From positions 1 to 35,705 of the forward strand of contig JAGQHB010000032.1 of NCBI GenBank assembly GCA_020432045.1: 35,705 nt of DNA, given 5' to 3'. The notes under the pieces were generated by a model. The model was not told where the DNA came from, did not search any database, and saw nothing but the letters and a program-made list of their open reading frames with translations. The translations under genes were made by a program, and so were the position numbers. How positions within the stretch are numbered: position 1 is the first letter of the stretch; the number at the start of each line of letters is the position of its first letter. Positions 27,920-35,705 of this stretch are shown one piece after another. This DNA is from Dehalococcoidia bacterium. GTDB lineage: Bacteria; Chloroflexota; Dehalococcoidia; Tepidiformales; Tepidiformaceae.

Positions 27920-28732
27920 TCAGGCGGAACGCACGCGCACCCCTTCCGGTGGCAATCCATCCTTGATCCCGGCTGCGAAACCATCCAACACACCGTAGAG
28001 GTCGCGGAACAGGCTCGTCGCGTACGTAACACGCCGGATGCCCAGCGTCGCGAAACGCGCGAGCGGGGTATTTCCGTTGCGTCGCGTGTTGATATTCACC
28101 GGAATTTTGGCCGCCTGTACGAATGCAGCGAGAATCGCCTCGTCCTGCAGACCGATTGGGTAGAGGCAGTCCGCCCCTGCTTCCCGGTACAGCTGGGCGC
28201 GACGGATCCCCTCTGCGAGCTGCTCCTCCGGCGTACCGGCGTGATGGATAAAGACATCCACACGCGCGTTCAGGACAAGATCAACACCGAGAGCCCGGGC
28301 CGCCGCGCGGCATGCCGCGATCCGCTCGGACTGCGCATCCGCACTGACCAGGATGCCGGCACCATGATGGTCGGAGTCCTCGATGTTGCAACCGGCCGCA
28401 CCGAGGCCAACGACCCGCCGCATCAGTTCTGCCGGCGCCAACCCATAGCCGGCTTCGAGGTCGATGGTGACTGGGATGGCCACTGCGCGGGCAATCCGGC
28501 CCGCCGCAGCGAGCATCTCCTCCGCCGGGGCATCTTCGTGGTCTTTATATCCGAGGCTCTGCGCAACGCCGCCGCTGGTCGTCGCGATTGCGGGAAAACC
28601 AGCCGCAGCGAAGGCGCGCGCACTTGCCGCGTCCCACGCGTTGGGCATCACCAGCATGCCCGGGCCCGTGTGCAACTGGCGGAAGGCCGCTGCCCGTGCT
28701 GCCACGATCTCCGTCGGTGGTACGTCGTTCAT
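27920..28732 (-). CDS. Isocitrate lyase / PEP mutase family protein
   Basis: This 270-residue TIM-barrel enzyme belongs to the ICL/PEPM family, which forms or breaks C-C or C-P bonds next to a carboxylate. The blocks are MLVMPNAWDAASARAFAAAG, AIATTSGGVAQSLGY, PVTIDLEAGYG (metal-binding acids) and AAGCNIEDSDH (the Glu-Asp pair). The lysine-cysteine loop (KKCGH) of true isocitrate and methylisocitrate lyases is absent, so it is not one of these. Family members of this shape include carboxyvinyl-carboxyphosphonate-like enzymes and oxaloacetate decarboxylase-like enzymes. It starts at the ATG at 28732. The gene lies 103 bases downstream of the selenoprotein candidate on the same strand. Confidence 0.9.
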   Translation of the reverse strand: MNDVPPTEIVAARAAAFRQLHTGPGMLVMPNAWDAASARAFAAAGFPAIATTSGGVAQSLGYKDHEDAPAEEMLAAAGRIARAVAIPVTIDLEAGYGLAPAELMRRVVGLGAAGCNIEDSDHHGAGILVSADAQSERIAACRAAARALGVDLVLNARVDVFIHHAGTPEEQLAEGIRRAQLYREAGADCLYPIGLQDEAILAAFVQAAKIPVNINTRRNGNTPLARFATLGIRRVTYATSLFRDLYGVLDGFAAGIKDGLPPEGVRVRSA

Positions 28733-28835: not shown

Positions 28836-29402
28836 TCAGTGCTGTACCGGTGGCGTGATCCCCCTCATCTGGCAGACGTTCTGCGACTCCACGTCGAACG
28901 CCCGATTGAACCGCGCCCGATAGTTTTCCATCGCGATCGTAGCGACGAGTTCGACCATTTGCGCCTCGGAAAACCACTTACGTGCGTTTTCAAACTGCTC
29001 ATCCGAAACGTCCACCGGCGTGTATGTCATGGCCTCGGCCAGTTCCAGCGCCGCCTGTTCCGCTTTGCTGAAGAGTTCACTCGTCCGAAATGATGCGAGG
29101 GCGGCGATTTTTTCGTCGGAGGCTCCAGCGACACTGCTCCCGGCAGTGTTGGTATCCATTCAGAAGGGGCAGCCGACCAGTTCCGCGGCTCGCAGGCAGA
29201 CGAGTGAACGGAGTTGCGCATCGAGTAGCCCGCTTTTTGCTGGCGCGGCGCCAAGTGCCCGGCTGGCTTCGAGGATGACTGGGGCGTACGCCTGGATACC
29301 GGCGCCGATCGCAGGCTGGCCCAGCCAACGCTCGCCAGCTTCCAGTGTGACTCGCAGGTCTCCCTCGACGTCGTCTTTCGTAAGCGGTCGAATCCGTGCC
29401 AC
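28836..29402 (-). CDS. Carboxymuconolactone decarboxylase / AhpD-like selenoprotein (candidate, CxxU)
   Basis: Read through an in-frame TGA at 29160-29162, this is one 188-residue CMD-family protein of usual length. The first half has MARIRPLTKDDVEGDL, YAPVILEASRALGA and LRSLVCLRAAELVGCPF. The second half has SDEKIAALASFRTSELFSKA, ALELAEAMTYTPVDVSDEQF, VELVATIAMENYRARFNRAF and DVESQNVCQ. In this family the middle reads GCPFCxDxN. Here the second Cys is TGA (Cys78-Pro-Phe-Sec81-Met-Asp-Thr-Asn). A hairpin that fits a bacterial SECIS follows the TGA. The start is the last of four GTG codons, with AGGAGG at 29411-29416 8 bases ahead; the third GTG (29405) is also possible. CMD/AhpD-like proteins use the CxxC pair for peroxide or disulfide chemistry. 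The Sec biosynthesis genes are not in this window. The alternative is a nonsense mutation. Confidence 0.8.
29131..29162 (-). promoter_or_regulatory. Putative bacterial SECIS element with its UGA
   Basis: On the minus strand the UGA (29162-29160) is followed by 10 bases and then the perfect hairpin ACACTGC-CGGGA-GCAGTGT (29149-29131, 7 bp, 5-base loop). The loop begins at the 18th base after the UGA and its second base is G. This matches the known bacterial SECIS rule of a loop 16-37 bases after UGA with an early G. A CCA/TGG pairing beyond a small bulge can extend the stem. It lies within codons that still encode a family-like linker. Confidence 0.7.
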
Positions 29403-29787
29403 CACCACCACCTCCTGGTTACCGATTGCCAACCATGAGGTTTTACCAGCACGGTTGAAGGGACACCGGGTTCTCCGCACCGATCGTCCTGGGGCGAACG
29501 GCCAGGGCGGGGCACCCGAATTCAGCGTCCATATCGTAACACGACATGACCGTTTCAGCTCACAAGCTAGGAGGGATCCTTTGGCAGCCGCTGCACCCGT
29601 TGAGCTCCGGAGGCCCGGGGCTCCCGCCTCATTTGGCAGCCGCTGTGAAGGGCGAGGGCGAACTGCGCTTCGGTGTTGCGTCCGAAGTCCGATCGTTAGT
29701 CTCCGGGCGGCACCCGGGCCGGAGACGGATCTCACGGGTTGCCTGGAAGGGCCACTATTTCGCACCAGGACGAGCCCGCTGCTAAGG
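29403..29787. other. Intergenic region before the selenoprotein candidate
   Basis: These 385 bases between the CMD-family start and the end of the CocE-like hydrolase gene hold no recognisable protein on either strand. The AGGAGG ribosome site for the CMD gene is at 29411-29416. I see no clear promoter boxes or terminator hairpin. Confidence 0.5.
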
Positions 29788-31605: not shown

Positions 31606-34600
31606 TTAGGGACGCACCCCGAACACCCGGTGCATCCCCTCGAACCCCTTCAGTGTCACTTCGCGCACCCCGTCCCATGCGAACGCCGTGCCCAACCGCT
31701 CCCGCACCACCTCCGAAACCAACACCTCACCACCCAGCGCCGCCGACGCCACCCGCGCCGCGTAGTTCACCTCTCGCCCGAAGAAGTCCTCCCCCTGCCG
31801 TACTGCCGACCCGGTATGCAGGCCGATCCTCACCCGGATCCCGTCCAGTAGCGTCGCCTCTCGTCTCCCCTCGCCCGCGGCAGCGGGAGAGCGGCCGGGG
31901 GTGAGGGCCGCCTGGATCGCCAGCGCACACCGCACGCCAGCTTCCGGCGAGGGAAACGCGACCATGTAGCCGTCGCCGATCGTCTTCACCGTCCGCCCGC
32001 CGTGGGCCGCCACCTCGCGGTCGACCAGGTCGTTGTGGGCGCGCAGCACCTCCATCCAACGCACATCGCCCAGCCGCTCGTTCAACGCCGTGGAACCCTC
32101 GATATCGCTGAACATCAACGTCACTGTGCCGTCGGCGGCAGCGTGTAGCGACACGTCCGGCCTCTCACGCCCCACCGCGGTCGAAACAGCGACGATAGAC
32201 GTGTAAGGGTCGGAGCCGGCCAGCCCCTGCAGTTCCACCTTCTTGGCGATCACTTCATCGAGGTACCGCTTCGCCCCCATCCGTTCGAATCGCGAACCGG
32301 CATCGTCGAGAAGCGAGAGGGCTCGATCGCGGCTTCCGTGAGCAGCCTCCACTTCCCCTTCGATCTGCAAGCATCGAGCGGCCACCAGCCATCGGCGCTC
32401 TCGTTCTCCCCAAGCGAATCCTTCTCGCAGTTCTGTGGCAGCCTCCTCCGCTCGCCCAAGCCGAATTAGCAACAGGGCAACCCGGTCTGATGCGAATTTG
32501 GTGACCCCGTTCAGGCCTTGTTCGATTTCAAGACTGAGAGTCGCCATTTCGTGACTCAGCAGGTTCACGAACGGGCGGTCGCCGAAGAGGAGCGATCCTC
32601 CGCCGCTCGGTACCCAAGTAGCGGGCAATCTGGCCGCTTCAGCGCGTGCTTCGTTGACCTGTCCGGCATACCACAAGGCTCTCACGCGTGTCACCACAAG
32701 CAATCTCCATAATACCGGAGCCGCGCCGATGGCATCGGGGTCTGGAACGTGGCGCAACGCACGGGCGGAGTCGCCTACGATGTCCGCCGCGAAACTGAGG
32801 GCACACCAGCCTCCCACCGCATCGGGAATCAGTCCTCCTAAACGTTCGCAATCTGTCCAGCGTCCGTCCGCGATTGCGTCCAGCATCTGCCACCAGACGC
32901 AGTTCGCCCAAACACGTCCGTTGTGAGCCGCCAGTGCGAGGTCCGTTGCCGCAGTCAACTCACCCTCATACTCGGCTCTCGGCAGGAATGTCCTTCCCCA
33001 TGCGGCGATCTGGTTATGAACTTCACTGGCTGCAAGGTGGTCGCCCTCGCTCGCCAACAGCTCGGCGGCGTCTCGGAGGAGCCGAACGGCCTCCTCAGCC
33101 CGACCTTTTGGAGCCAGCTGCCTCGCCTTGAAGGCAGCGATGTCGGCTGCAAGCCTTCCATTACGGAGTCCGAGGGACAGGCGCTCAGCCTTTTCACAAT
33201 AAGCCCACGCTTCTTCGGCTTTTCCAAGCTCAGCAGATGAGGCGGCGGCGCGAATCGAGAGTTCGGCACATACGCCCAACGCCAACCCGTCGGAGTGTCC
33301 CCGAGCTTCGCGGCAGAGGAGTAGCCGTTCGGTGGCCTGCATGGGCTGCGAGTAATAGGTGTAGGTAGCATCCCTGCACGTGTCGGCGAAACGCCTCCAT
33401 TCACCACTTGCCCGCAGCAGTGAAAGCGCCGCGCGCCAATGTTCGGCCGCTCGCCTCGCTGCGTCTTCGAATCCCGAGAACCGCTCGTTCGTGGCAAGCC
33501 GGGCGAGGGCGGAAGCTTCATCGAACGCCATACGCGGTGCCATCCGTCCCACCTCAAGCGCTCGCTCGAGCAGCTTGACGGCTTCTGCGAACGCGGAGTG
33601 GCTTTCCGCTTGTGCTCCAGCGAGGAGCAGGAATTTGAGGGCCCGGCCGGCGTGCTCCTCTGTCAGAATGGCGCTCTCGCTGAAATGGTTCGCCAGCCGG
33701 CTCGCATACTCCTCCGCCCTATCCCCCCACCTCCGCTCCAGCGCCTCCCCCACCTGGCCGTGGAGGCGCACCCGTCGCGTCGTCGAGAGCTCACCCAGCA
33801 ACGTCTCCTGCATGAGAGCGTGCGTGAAGCGGTAGCGGCCCGGCTGCTCCATCTCCTCCACTACCCGCGCCTCCAGCCCCTCCTCGATCAGGTTCAGGAG
33901 TGCGTCGTCGTCACCCGCGTGCAACAGCTGCATCGTGTCGTAGGTGAACTCCCGTCCCACCACCGCCGCCACCTGCAGCAGCGACGTCGCCTCGTCCGAG
34001 ATCCGGTCCAGCCTTCGCCCCAGCGCTTCCCGTACCCCGTCGGGGATGTGAATATCCGAGACCGACTCGCTGGCCAGCGTCCCCTCCTGTGTCAGCAGGT
34101 TCACCACTTCGCTCAGGAAGAACGGGTTGCCTTCCGTCTCCTCGTAGACCCGCTCCACCAGCGCACTCGATGGCTGCAGGCTGGCGGCGCCACGGATGTA
34201 GGCCCGCGTCTCTTCTTTCGACAGTCCCCTGAGCACCACCCGCTCGAACCCAGGGTCCCTGTTGAGGTTGGCCAGTGCCTCGCTCAAGGGATGCGTGCGC
34301 ACCAGGTCCGTGTCGCGGTAGGTGCAGACCACCAGCACCCGCATGCGCGAAAGCTCTCTCGCAAGATGCTGTAACAGCTGCAACGTCGGCTTGTCCGACC
34401 AGTGGAGGTCGTCGAGCGTGATCACCGTCGGCTTCGCTTCCGAGATGAGCCGTACGAAGCTGCTGAAGGCATCGAACAGCCGGAACTGTGCAGCAGCCCC
34501 GTCCTGCATCAGCGGCGGCTCAACAAAACCATCAACTCCCCTGAGTTCTGGGAACAGCCGCGCAAGGTCACCACCACCGGCTGCAAGGAAGGAAGAGAGC

Positions 34601-35705
34601 GAGTTCACGTCGTTCGTGCTTCCCCAGTGGCGTCCCACCTGCACCCACGGCCAGAAGGCAGGAGCTCCCGAGTTCTCATGGTTCCGTCCCCACAGCACCT
34701 GCGCCCCCCGCATGCGCGCATAGGTTTCCAGCTCCTGTGCCGTGCGCGTCTTGCCGATGCCCGGCTCGCCCACCAGCATCACCAGCCCGCCATGACCCGA
34801 GAGCGCCTCGTCGAAGGCCTTGCGCAGGCGGTCCAGTTCCTTCTCCCGACCGACGAAGACCCCGCGCGCCAGCCGTTCAAGGACATGGCCCTCGCTGCGC
34901 GGGGCAGGACGTTCCTCGGGGTCCACCTTCTCCAGCAAGGCAAGCACTTCCGCAGCATCGGCAGGACGCTTCCCGGGGTCTTTTTCCAGCAGACGGAGGA
35001 GCACGCGCTCAAGGCCGGGCGGACAGTCCTCGCGGTGCCAGGATGGTGCTACCGGTGGCGTGTTCAGGTGCTGGGAGATGATTGCCGTGGGGTCGTCGCC
35101 CACAAAGGGTGGCCTTCCCGTGAACACCTCGTAGAGCAGCGCCCCGAAGGAGTAGAGGTCGCTCTTTGCCGTGACCTCGCCGCCGACCGCCTGTTCCGGC
35201 GGCATATAGGCGACCGTCCCGACGAACGTCCCGTGCTGGGTGATGCGCGACAGGTCGGCAGCCATCGCCAGTCCGAAATCGCCGACCTTGGCCGTGCCGT
35301 CCTTCGCGAGGAAGACATTTGCCGGCTTCAGGTCGCGGTGCACGACGCCCGCGCGATGGATGAACGCCAGCGCCGCGGCGATATCCTTGGCCACACCGAG
35401 CACGCGAGCGACCGCCATGGGTTCCGGGCCGACGGCAAGGTCGCCGCCGTCCATGTACTCCTGGACGAGATACGAGTCTCCCGCTTCCTCGCCGATGTCG
35501 TGGATCGCCACGAGGTTGGGATGGGCGCCGATGCGGGCCATCGCCCGGGCCTCACGCTGCACCCGTTCTCGGCCCATGGCATCGAGACCCTCCGTACGGA
35601 TGACGGCGAAGGCCACGTCCCGGTCCAATCGCTCGTCGTGGGCGAGGTAGACCCGTTTCCGAGCACCCTCCCCGAGCAGGCGCAACACCCGGTAACGCCC
35701 CGAGA
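31606..35705 (-). CDS. Ser/Thr kinase - AAA ATPase - TPR - adenylate/guanylate cyclase fusion (5' end cut by window)
   Basis: At least 1366 codons are visible; the frame is open at the right edge with GRYRVLRLLGEGARKRVYLA, the usual start of a kinase domain, so only the first few residues are missing. The kinase (about the first 265 residues) has VVHRDLKPANVFL, VGDFGLA and YMPPEQAVGG. The ATP-anchoring strand reads DVAFAVIRTEG, with no Lys at the VAIK place. An AAA/AfsR-like ATPase domain follows, with Walker A MLVGEPGIGKTRTAQE and Walker B VITLDDLHWSD. Then comes a long helical TPR-like region. The C-terminal class III nucleotide cyclase has TLMFSDIEGSTALNERLG and VKTIGDGYMVAF with both metal Asp, and IGLHTGSAVRQGEDFFG and VNYAARVAS. 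The cyclase has a 16-residue insert made of repeat-like DNA (31857-31912). It is likely a signal integrator making cAMP. Confidence 0.93.
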   Translation of the reverse strand, partial: SGRYRVLRLLGEGARKRVYLAHDERLDRDVAFAVIRTEGLDAMGRERVQREARAMARIGAHPNLVAIHDIGEEAGDSYLVQEYMDGGDLAVGPEPMAVARVLGVAKDIAAALAFIHRAGVVHRDLKPANVFLAKDGTAKVGDFGLAMAADLSRITQHGTFVGTVAYMPPEQAVGGEVTAKSDLYSFGALLYEVFTGRPPFVGDDPTAIISQHLNTPPVAPSWHREDCPPGLERVLLRLLEKDPGKRPADAAEVLALLEKVDPEERPAPRSEGHVLERLARGVFVGREKELDRLRKAFDEALSGHGGLVMLVGEPGIGKTRTAQELETYARMRGAQVLWGRNHENSGAPAFWPWVQVGRHWGSTNDVNSLSSFLAAGGGDLARLFPELRGVDGFVEPPLMQDGAAAQFRLFDAFSSFVRLISEAKPTVITLDDLHWSDKPTLQLLQHLARELSRMRVLVVCTYRDTDLVRTHPLSEALANLNRDPGFERVVLRGLSKEETRAYIRGAASLQPSSALVERVYEETEGNPFFLSEVVNLLTQEGTLASESVSDIHIPDGVREALGRRLDRISDEATSLLQVAAVVGREFTYDTMQLLHAGDDDALLNLIEEGLEARVVEEMEQPGRYRFTHALMQETLLGELSTTRRVRLHGQVGEALERRWGDRAEEYASRLANHFSESAILTEEHAGRALKFLLLAGAQAESHSAFAEAVKLLERALEVGRMAPRMAFDEASALARLATNERFSGFEDAARRAAEHWRAALSLLRASGEWRRFADTCRDATYTYYSQPMQATERLLLCREARGHSDGLALGVCAELSIRAAASSAELGKAEEAWAYCEKAERLSLGLRNGRLAADIAAFKARQLAPKGRAEEAVRLLRDAAELLASEGDHLAASEVHNQIAAWGRTFLPRAEYEGELTAATDLALAAHNGRVWANCVWWQMLDAIADGRWTDCERLGGLIPDAVGGWCALSFAADIVGDSARALRHVPDPDAIGAAPVLWRLLVVTRVRALWYAGQVNEARAEAARLPATWVPSGGGSLLFGDRPFVNLLSHEMATLSLEIEQGLNGVTKFASDRVALLLIRLGRAEEAATELREGFAWGERERRWLVAARCLQIEGEVEAAHGSRDRALSLLDDAGSRFERMGAKRYLDEVIAKKVELQGLAGSDPYTSIVAVSTAVGRERPDVSLHAAADGTVTLMFSDIEGSTALNERLGDVRWMEVLRAHNDLVDREVAAHGGRTVKTIGDGYMVAFPSPEAGVRCALAIQAALTPGRSPAAAGEGRREATLLDGIRVRIGLHTGSAVRQGEDFFGREVNYAARVASAALGGEVLVSEVVRERLGTAFAWDGVREVTLKGFEGMHRVFGVRP
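31857..31912. repeat. REP-like palindromic element inside the cyclase coding region
   Basis: The stretch around CCCGC-GGCA-GCGGG with outer CTCTCCC-like and GGGGGTGAGGGC sequences forms an imperfect hairpin. It codes in frame for a Pro/Gly/Ala/Arg-rich insert (LTPGRSPAAAGEGRRE). In cyclases this point, between IQAAL and IRVRIGLHTG, is normally a short loop. From general experience, elements of this composition are common dispersed intergenic repeats in high-GC bacteria. No second copy is in this window, so the family assignment is inference. Confidence 0.5.

Follow-up and report, generated by a model that had tools for sequence, protein, structure and literature searches.

AhpD-like and CMD-domain selenoproteins with a CxxU motif were reported in 2005 from the Sargasso Sea (PMC1088965), and the table of a 2026 review gives TIGR01926, PF02627, NF041238 and NF041047 as AhpD/CMD CxxU families (PMC13188914). 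The main text of the same review makes no mention of Chloroflexi or of NF053654 (GroundWater_YciW), the NCBIfam family described as 'YciW-related (seleno)protein'. In AhpD-like proteins a proton relay formed by Glu, Cys, His/Tyr, Cys and His has been described, while the gamma-carboxymuconolactone decarboxylase members carry neither the CxxC motif nor the peroxidase residues (PMC3141380).

We have analyzed a gene related to these proteins in a Dehalococcoidia bacterium. The window, i.e. the whole stretch of 35,705 nucleotides under study, is contig 92 of a 3.48 Mb genome that is 97% complete. A gene on its minus strand is almost certainly decoded through SelB as a single 188-residue AhpD-like/CMD selenoprotein. 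The features of the locus are the following:

27920..28732, minus strand: PEP-mutase/isocitrate-lyase-superfamily protein, co-directional, 103 bp downstream (Pfam PF13714, 258.8 bits)
28836..29402, minus strand: predicted CMD/AhpD-like selenoprotein CDS, GTG start at 29402-29400, 188 residues with Sec81, stop TGA at 28838-28836
29131..29149, minus strand: predicted bSECIS hairpin ACACTGC-CGGGA-GCAGTGT, indicated by covariation, codon freezing and fit to the published model
29160..29162, minus strand: in-frame TGA, predicted Sec81; TGA in 16/16 of the closest set and 36/40 of the wider clade, Cys in L087, L091 and L093
29169..29171, minus strand: codon of Cys78, first residue of the Cys-Pro-Phe-Sec motif, from the translation; invariant in close orthologues
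29411..29416, minus strand: Shine-Dalgarno AGGAGG, 8 nt ahead of the GTG start, read from the sequence

The initial annotation had given the right coordinates for this gene and left the strand unstated. The + strand of the same interval yields no sensible product, and translation of the minus strand with TGA as U gives VARIRPL...VGCPF-U-MDTNTAGSS...PPVQH-stop. There are two in-frame TGA codons, one internal (codon 81) and one terminal (codon 189), and the GTG at 29402 is aligned with the ATG starts of the orthologues. The joined protein matches Pfam CMD (PF02627) with 44.5 bits (cut-off 23) along residues 46-124, spanning the TGA, and neither half searched alone against Pfam gave a match. The domain is thus found only in the joined protein, which requires read-through and agrees with the earlier description of one complete CMD-family protein if the TGA is decoded.

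With the AhpD-like and CMD-like CxxU selenoproteins the window protein shares the Pfam CMD domain, the CxxU motif and a bacterial SECIS after the TGA. It aligns full length with NF053654 (139.2 bits, residues 2-176 of 179), below the 310-bit cut-off of this family, and the members of its clade score between 122 and 133 bits. A member of NF053654, L072 (358.7 bits), has a TGA at the same column followed by a homologous hairpin, but the motif of the family is GCEFUQDIN instead of the GCPFUMDTN of the window protein, which groups in a different clade, one with 16 members. The match to TIGR01926 (peroxidase-related/AhpD-like) was weak, with 35.1 bits for a cut-off of 81.8. Judging from these comparisons, the clade is a new and well-supported branch of the AhpD/CMD-like Cys-x-x-Sec selenoproteins known since 2005, real but no surprise to a specialist. 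That AhpD-like selenoproteins are a known idea, as had been said of this locus, was correct but understated, since the AhpD/CMD CxxU proteins are listed families. Because the branch lies below the current family cut-offs, annotation pipelines would probably split the gene into two wrong genes. Many other CMD paralogues with an in-frame TGA were found in the same order (genomes G008, G011, G016 and G027-G035). Two examples, L040 and L041, read NGCRY-U and represent another CxxU group far from NF053654 (49 bits for L040).

The TGA is conserved well beyond this genome. An order-wide search retrieved four orthologues with 70-77% identity, each with one TGA at the homologous codon. When the contigs of named genomes were scanned with a single sequence no matches appeared, whereas the alignment-based scan gave eight, all with TGA, four of them new and four from the same genomes as the order-wide orthologues; six of the eight are labeled as Dehalococcoidia or other Chloroflexota and one as Holophagae. 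In a sample of 400 genomes from the phylum there was a match in 65, and nearly all the better-matching loci had the TGA at the same column. Phylum-wide, 44 of the 72 rows used for a maximum-likelihood tree were CxxU TGA forms, and the tree required 7 label changes for the Sec forms vs 22 with shuffled labels. The inner clade with the window protein contained the TGA in all of its 16 members, which belong to different genera and families, and the wider clade (n=40, mostly Chloroflexota) included 36 Sec forms and four Cys-type motifs. Cys was found at the TGA column in L087, L091, L093 and others. L087, from family f61, is a close sister to the Sec forms L085, L086, L095, L097 and L098, providing a direct Cys/Sec pair. 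The relatives thus show either TGA or Cys at residue 81, in line with the original placement of the TGA at the second Cys of the redox motif. In the nine closest genes the pN/pS was 0.33 for the part preceding the TGA and 0.35 for the part beyond, indicating that both are equally constrained, and loss of the C-terminal half, looked for in the close relatives, was seen in none.

Two other observations concern individual members of the tree. L051 (PQAJ01000245.1, labeled Holophagae, Acidobacteriota) sits within the Dehalococcoidia branch, reflecting either horizontal transfer or a mis-binned contig. In L076 there is a second in-frame TGA at codon 107 of the matched protein (RDGH-TGA-RNLEAL), where its sister L078 reads CW; this could be a sequencing error, a Trp-to-stop change or a second Sec.

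The hairpin that follows the TGA has a perfect 7-bp stem (29149-29143/29137-29131) and the loop CGGGA (29142-29138). The stem starts at the 11th base after the TGA and the loop at the 18th (17 nt between), so that stem and loop had been correctly recognized in the initial annotation but it is the loop, not the stem, that begins at the 18th base. The published model for bacterial SECIS includes a loop of 3-9 nt, a stem of 4-16 bp, a G among the first two nucleotides of the loop, a spacing of 16-37 nt and a free-energy limit (PMC13188914). The four properties compared, loop size, stem length, loop G and distance to the TGA, are all within this model, supporting the fitness for SelB read-through that had been proposed. 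By itself the hairpin is only moderately rare and statistically not strong. Among the 913 TGA triplets of the window, three are followed by a hairpin of this kind whose loop begins at a distance of 16-25 nt, and synonymous resampling of residues 82-101 yielded a 7-bp stem at a spacing of 16-37 in 1.4% of the cases. The folding energy of the 71-nt region showed no unusual stability (z = -0.02) and for this reason was not taken as evidence. The decisive evidence is that the TGA and the hairpin are conserved in many genomes.

In a set of 28 sequences the helix had 13 double-change cells vs 4.9 in shuffles, and structures slid along the alignment fared worse by all three measures, namely paired cells, double changes and covariation. 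The pair between columns 16 and 30 (position 1 of codon 86 and position 3 of codon 90) was kept in 28/28 by GC, AU, GU and UA pairs. The two outer pairs were kept in part of this set only, and a C-A mismatch interrupts the stem of L053, a close relative. Among more distant sisters a C-G pair closes a loop with the sequence GUG or GGC, still within the SECIS model. The use of codons also appears frozen, with codon identity at conserved residues exceeding the expectation by 0.30 in the hairpin vs 0.06 elsewhere. Gly88 is GGG and Ser89 is AGC in 16/16, where codon usage predicts about a third, and the stem codons ACT and AGT are locally rare, making up about 8% and 7%, respectively, of the codons in their families.

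The four components of the Sec machinery that had been proposed as a check, selA, selB, selC (tRNA-Sec) and selD, were all found in the same genome. The tRNA-Sec is intact, with anticodon TCA (70 bits, cut-off 47), SelA (E 8.9e-129) and SelD (E 4e-106) are present, and SelB (310 bits, cut-off 242) is a full-length open frame of 630 aa that extends into the C-terminal part, the one responsible for SECIS binding in known SelB proteins. The selD gene (L018:1531-1533; G000:C2:37669-38601, + strand) itself contains an in-frame TGA at the site where Sec is usually found (TSCGG-TGA-ASKAG), followed by a hairpin, and is apparently a second selenoprotein gene of this genome. A distant CMD-like match with one in-frame TGA (G000:C13:17688-18032, + strand) is possibly a third.

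We have also compared the distribution of SelA and of the TGA forms. Within the order the association was clear, with SelA in 20 of the 22 genomes that have a TGA-bearing CMD match vs 6 of the 16 others (Fisher p 0.001), and the six genomes of genus g16 were without both. At the level of the phylum it was only suggestive (41/44 vs 289/356, p 0.057), because most Chloroflexota have SelA. The SelA-negative genomes with TGA forms, G036 (72% complete) and G020 (81%) in the order and G253, G321 and G224 (84-86%) in the phylum sample, are all five incomplete assemblies.

A single base separates TGA from TGC or TGT and some of the wider relatives have Cys at this site, so that an ordinary Cys gene interrupted by a nonsense mutation or a sequencing error has to be considered. 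The recurrence of the same TGA in all 16 closest members, across genera and families, already refutes this explanation, and the selection acting beyond the TGA, the covarying hairpin and the complete Sec machinery make it extremely improbable. Two separate genes, one for a protein of 80 residues that stops at the TGA and one for a 107-residue protein from the next ATG, are suggested by the sequence TGAATG, in which the ATG directly abuts the TGA in the window, and by the gene finder, which calls a 107-aa ORF at 28836-29159. Yet this ATG is not conserved (the relatives read ATT, GCG, CAG, ACC or GCC), neither half is recognizable as a domain, the CMD core would be cut within its catalytic motif and the Cys homologues are single proteins, which leaves this arrangement very unlikely. 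Reassignment of TGA in this genome, for example to Trp or Gly, or read-through without Sec would account for a translated in-frame TGA. However, the same gene terminates with a TGA, the homologous residue is Cys in the Cys-type relatives and a specific tRNA-Sec and SelB are present, and we give this explanation hardly any probability. A selenoprotein with Sec at position 81 is by far the most probable product of the gene.

AlphaFold2, from an alignment of nine rows, predicted an all-helical model (pLDDT 79) in which Cys78 lies just ahead of the helix 79-91 and Sec81 near its start. The best PDB matches to the model were the debrominase Bmp8, Atu0492 and PA0269/AhpD. Together with the placement of the helix, these matches locate Sec81 where AhpD has the second Cys of its active site (Cys133 in M. 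tuberculosis). M. tuberculosis AhpD and P. aeruginosa PA0269 have in common with the window protein the two-helix hairpin and the CxxC/CxxU at the helix start, with Sec at the second Cys. Cys78 and Sec81 correspond to the CxxC (or CxxU) active site of classical AhpD, but the Glu, His/Tyr and His positions of the relay do not: the equivalent residues are Ser66, Cys78, Phe80, Sec81 and Asn85, with Ser66, Phe80 and Asn85 in place of Glu118, His132 and His137, so that three of the five AhpD residues are missing. Peroxidase chemistry is not assured given this incomplete relay. A selenol needs no general base to be ionized at neutral pH, and Sec may for this reason compensate for the lost residues. 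In L085, a relative from the wider set, Glu, Tyr and His are retained alongside Sec, indicating that the use of Sec is independent of the loss of the relay. Gamma-carboxymuconolactone decarboxylase shares with the window protein the Pfam superfamily name and a related fold, but the CxxU distinguishes the latter.

In the mechanism that we propose, the ribosome would start at the GTG at 29402 and, on reaching the UGA at codon 81, SelB with Sec-tRNA(UCA) would bind the downstream hairpin, Sec being inserted instead of termination taking place. The product would adopt the all-helical CMD/AhpD fold, and Cys78-Pro-Phe-Sec81 would lie where one of the helices begins. The selenolate of Sec81 might then attack an oxidized substrate (a hydroperoxide or another electrophilic or oxidized compound), Cys78 would resolve the intermediate as a selenenylsulfide and a donor of the thioredoxin or lipoyl type would reduce it again. 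The most likely activity is that of a selenol/thiol oxidoreductase, and a role in peroxide or general thiol/selenol redox chemistry seems reasonably probable.

The genomic context provides some hints about the function. A gene of the PEP-mutase/isocitrate-lyase superfamily accompanies the selenoprotein gene in six of the nine close loci. In L050, L052, L053 and L055 a relative of the window neighbor (54-60% identity) is located 0-103 bp upstream of the selenoprotein gene, and in L056 a relative lies 987 bp upstream, while in the window the order is reversed. The preservation of the adjacency in two different gene orders suggests that both genes are functionally linked. The neighbor scored far under the cut-off of every characterized family and does not, therefore, name a pathway. 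Farther along the window (31606-35688, minus strand) there is a protein of 1360 aa that combines Ser/Thr kinase and AAA ATPase domains with an adenylate/guanylate cyclase domain at the C-terminus.

This linkage, the loss of the AhpD relay positions and the likeness to Bmp8 (6ohi, 6ohj), the best PDB match both by sequence (E 1.2e-10) and by fold (TM 0.76), might point to a real selenoprotein with a chemistry other than peroxide reduction, such as a reductive step in which an electrophilic metabolite loses a group, comparable to the debromination of bromopyrroles by Bmp8, within the pathway to which the PEP-mutase-family neighbor belongs. On the other hand, Bmp8 has Cys where the window protein has Sec, the resemblance is one of sequence and fold at about 22-23% identity, and several AhpD-like proteins match the fold equally well; we regard this alternative as possible but rather unlikely. 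Still less probable is a more specific version, a Chloroflexota subfamily with CxxU and without the three relay residues in which Sec would reduce an electrophilic metabolite, perhaps one that is halogenated or activated in another way, in a reaction coupled to the PEP-mutase/isocitrate-lyase-superfamily enzyme encoded next to it. If true, it would represent a new selenium-dependent metabolic step and not peroxide defense.

As an AhpD/CMD-like selenoprotein, the window protein belongs to a broad branch, whose Sec forms in the wider clade extend across many Chloroflexota families. Its recognition enlarges the known selenoproteome of the Chloroflexota and supplies an alignment and a SECIS ready for annotation, and the conserved linkage to the PEP-mutase family gives a testable hint to the function of uncharacterized CxxU proteins.
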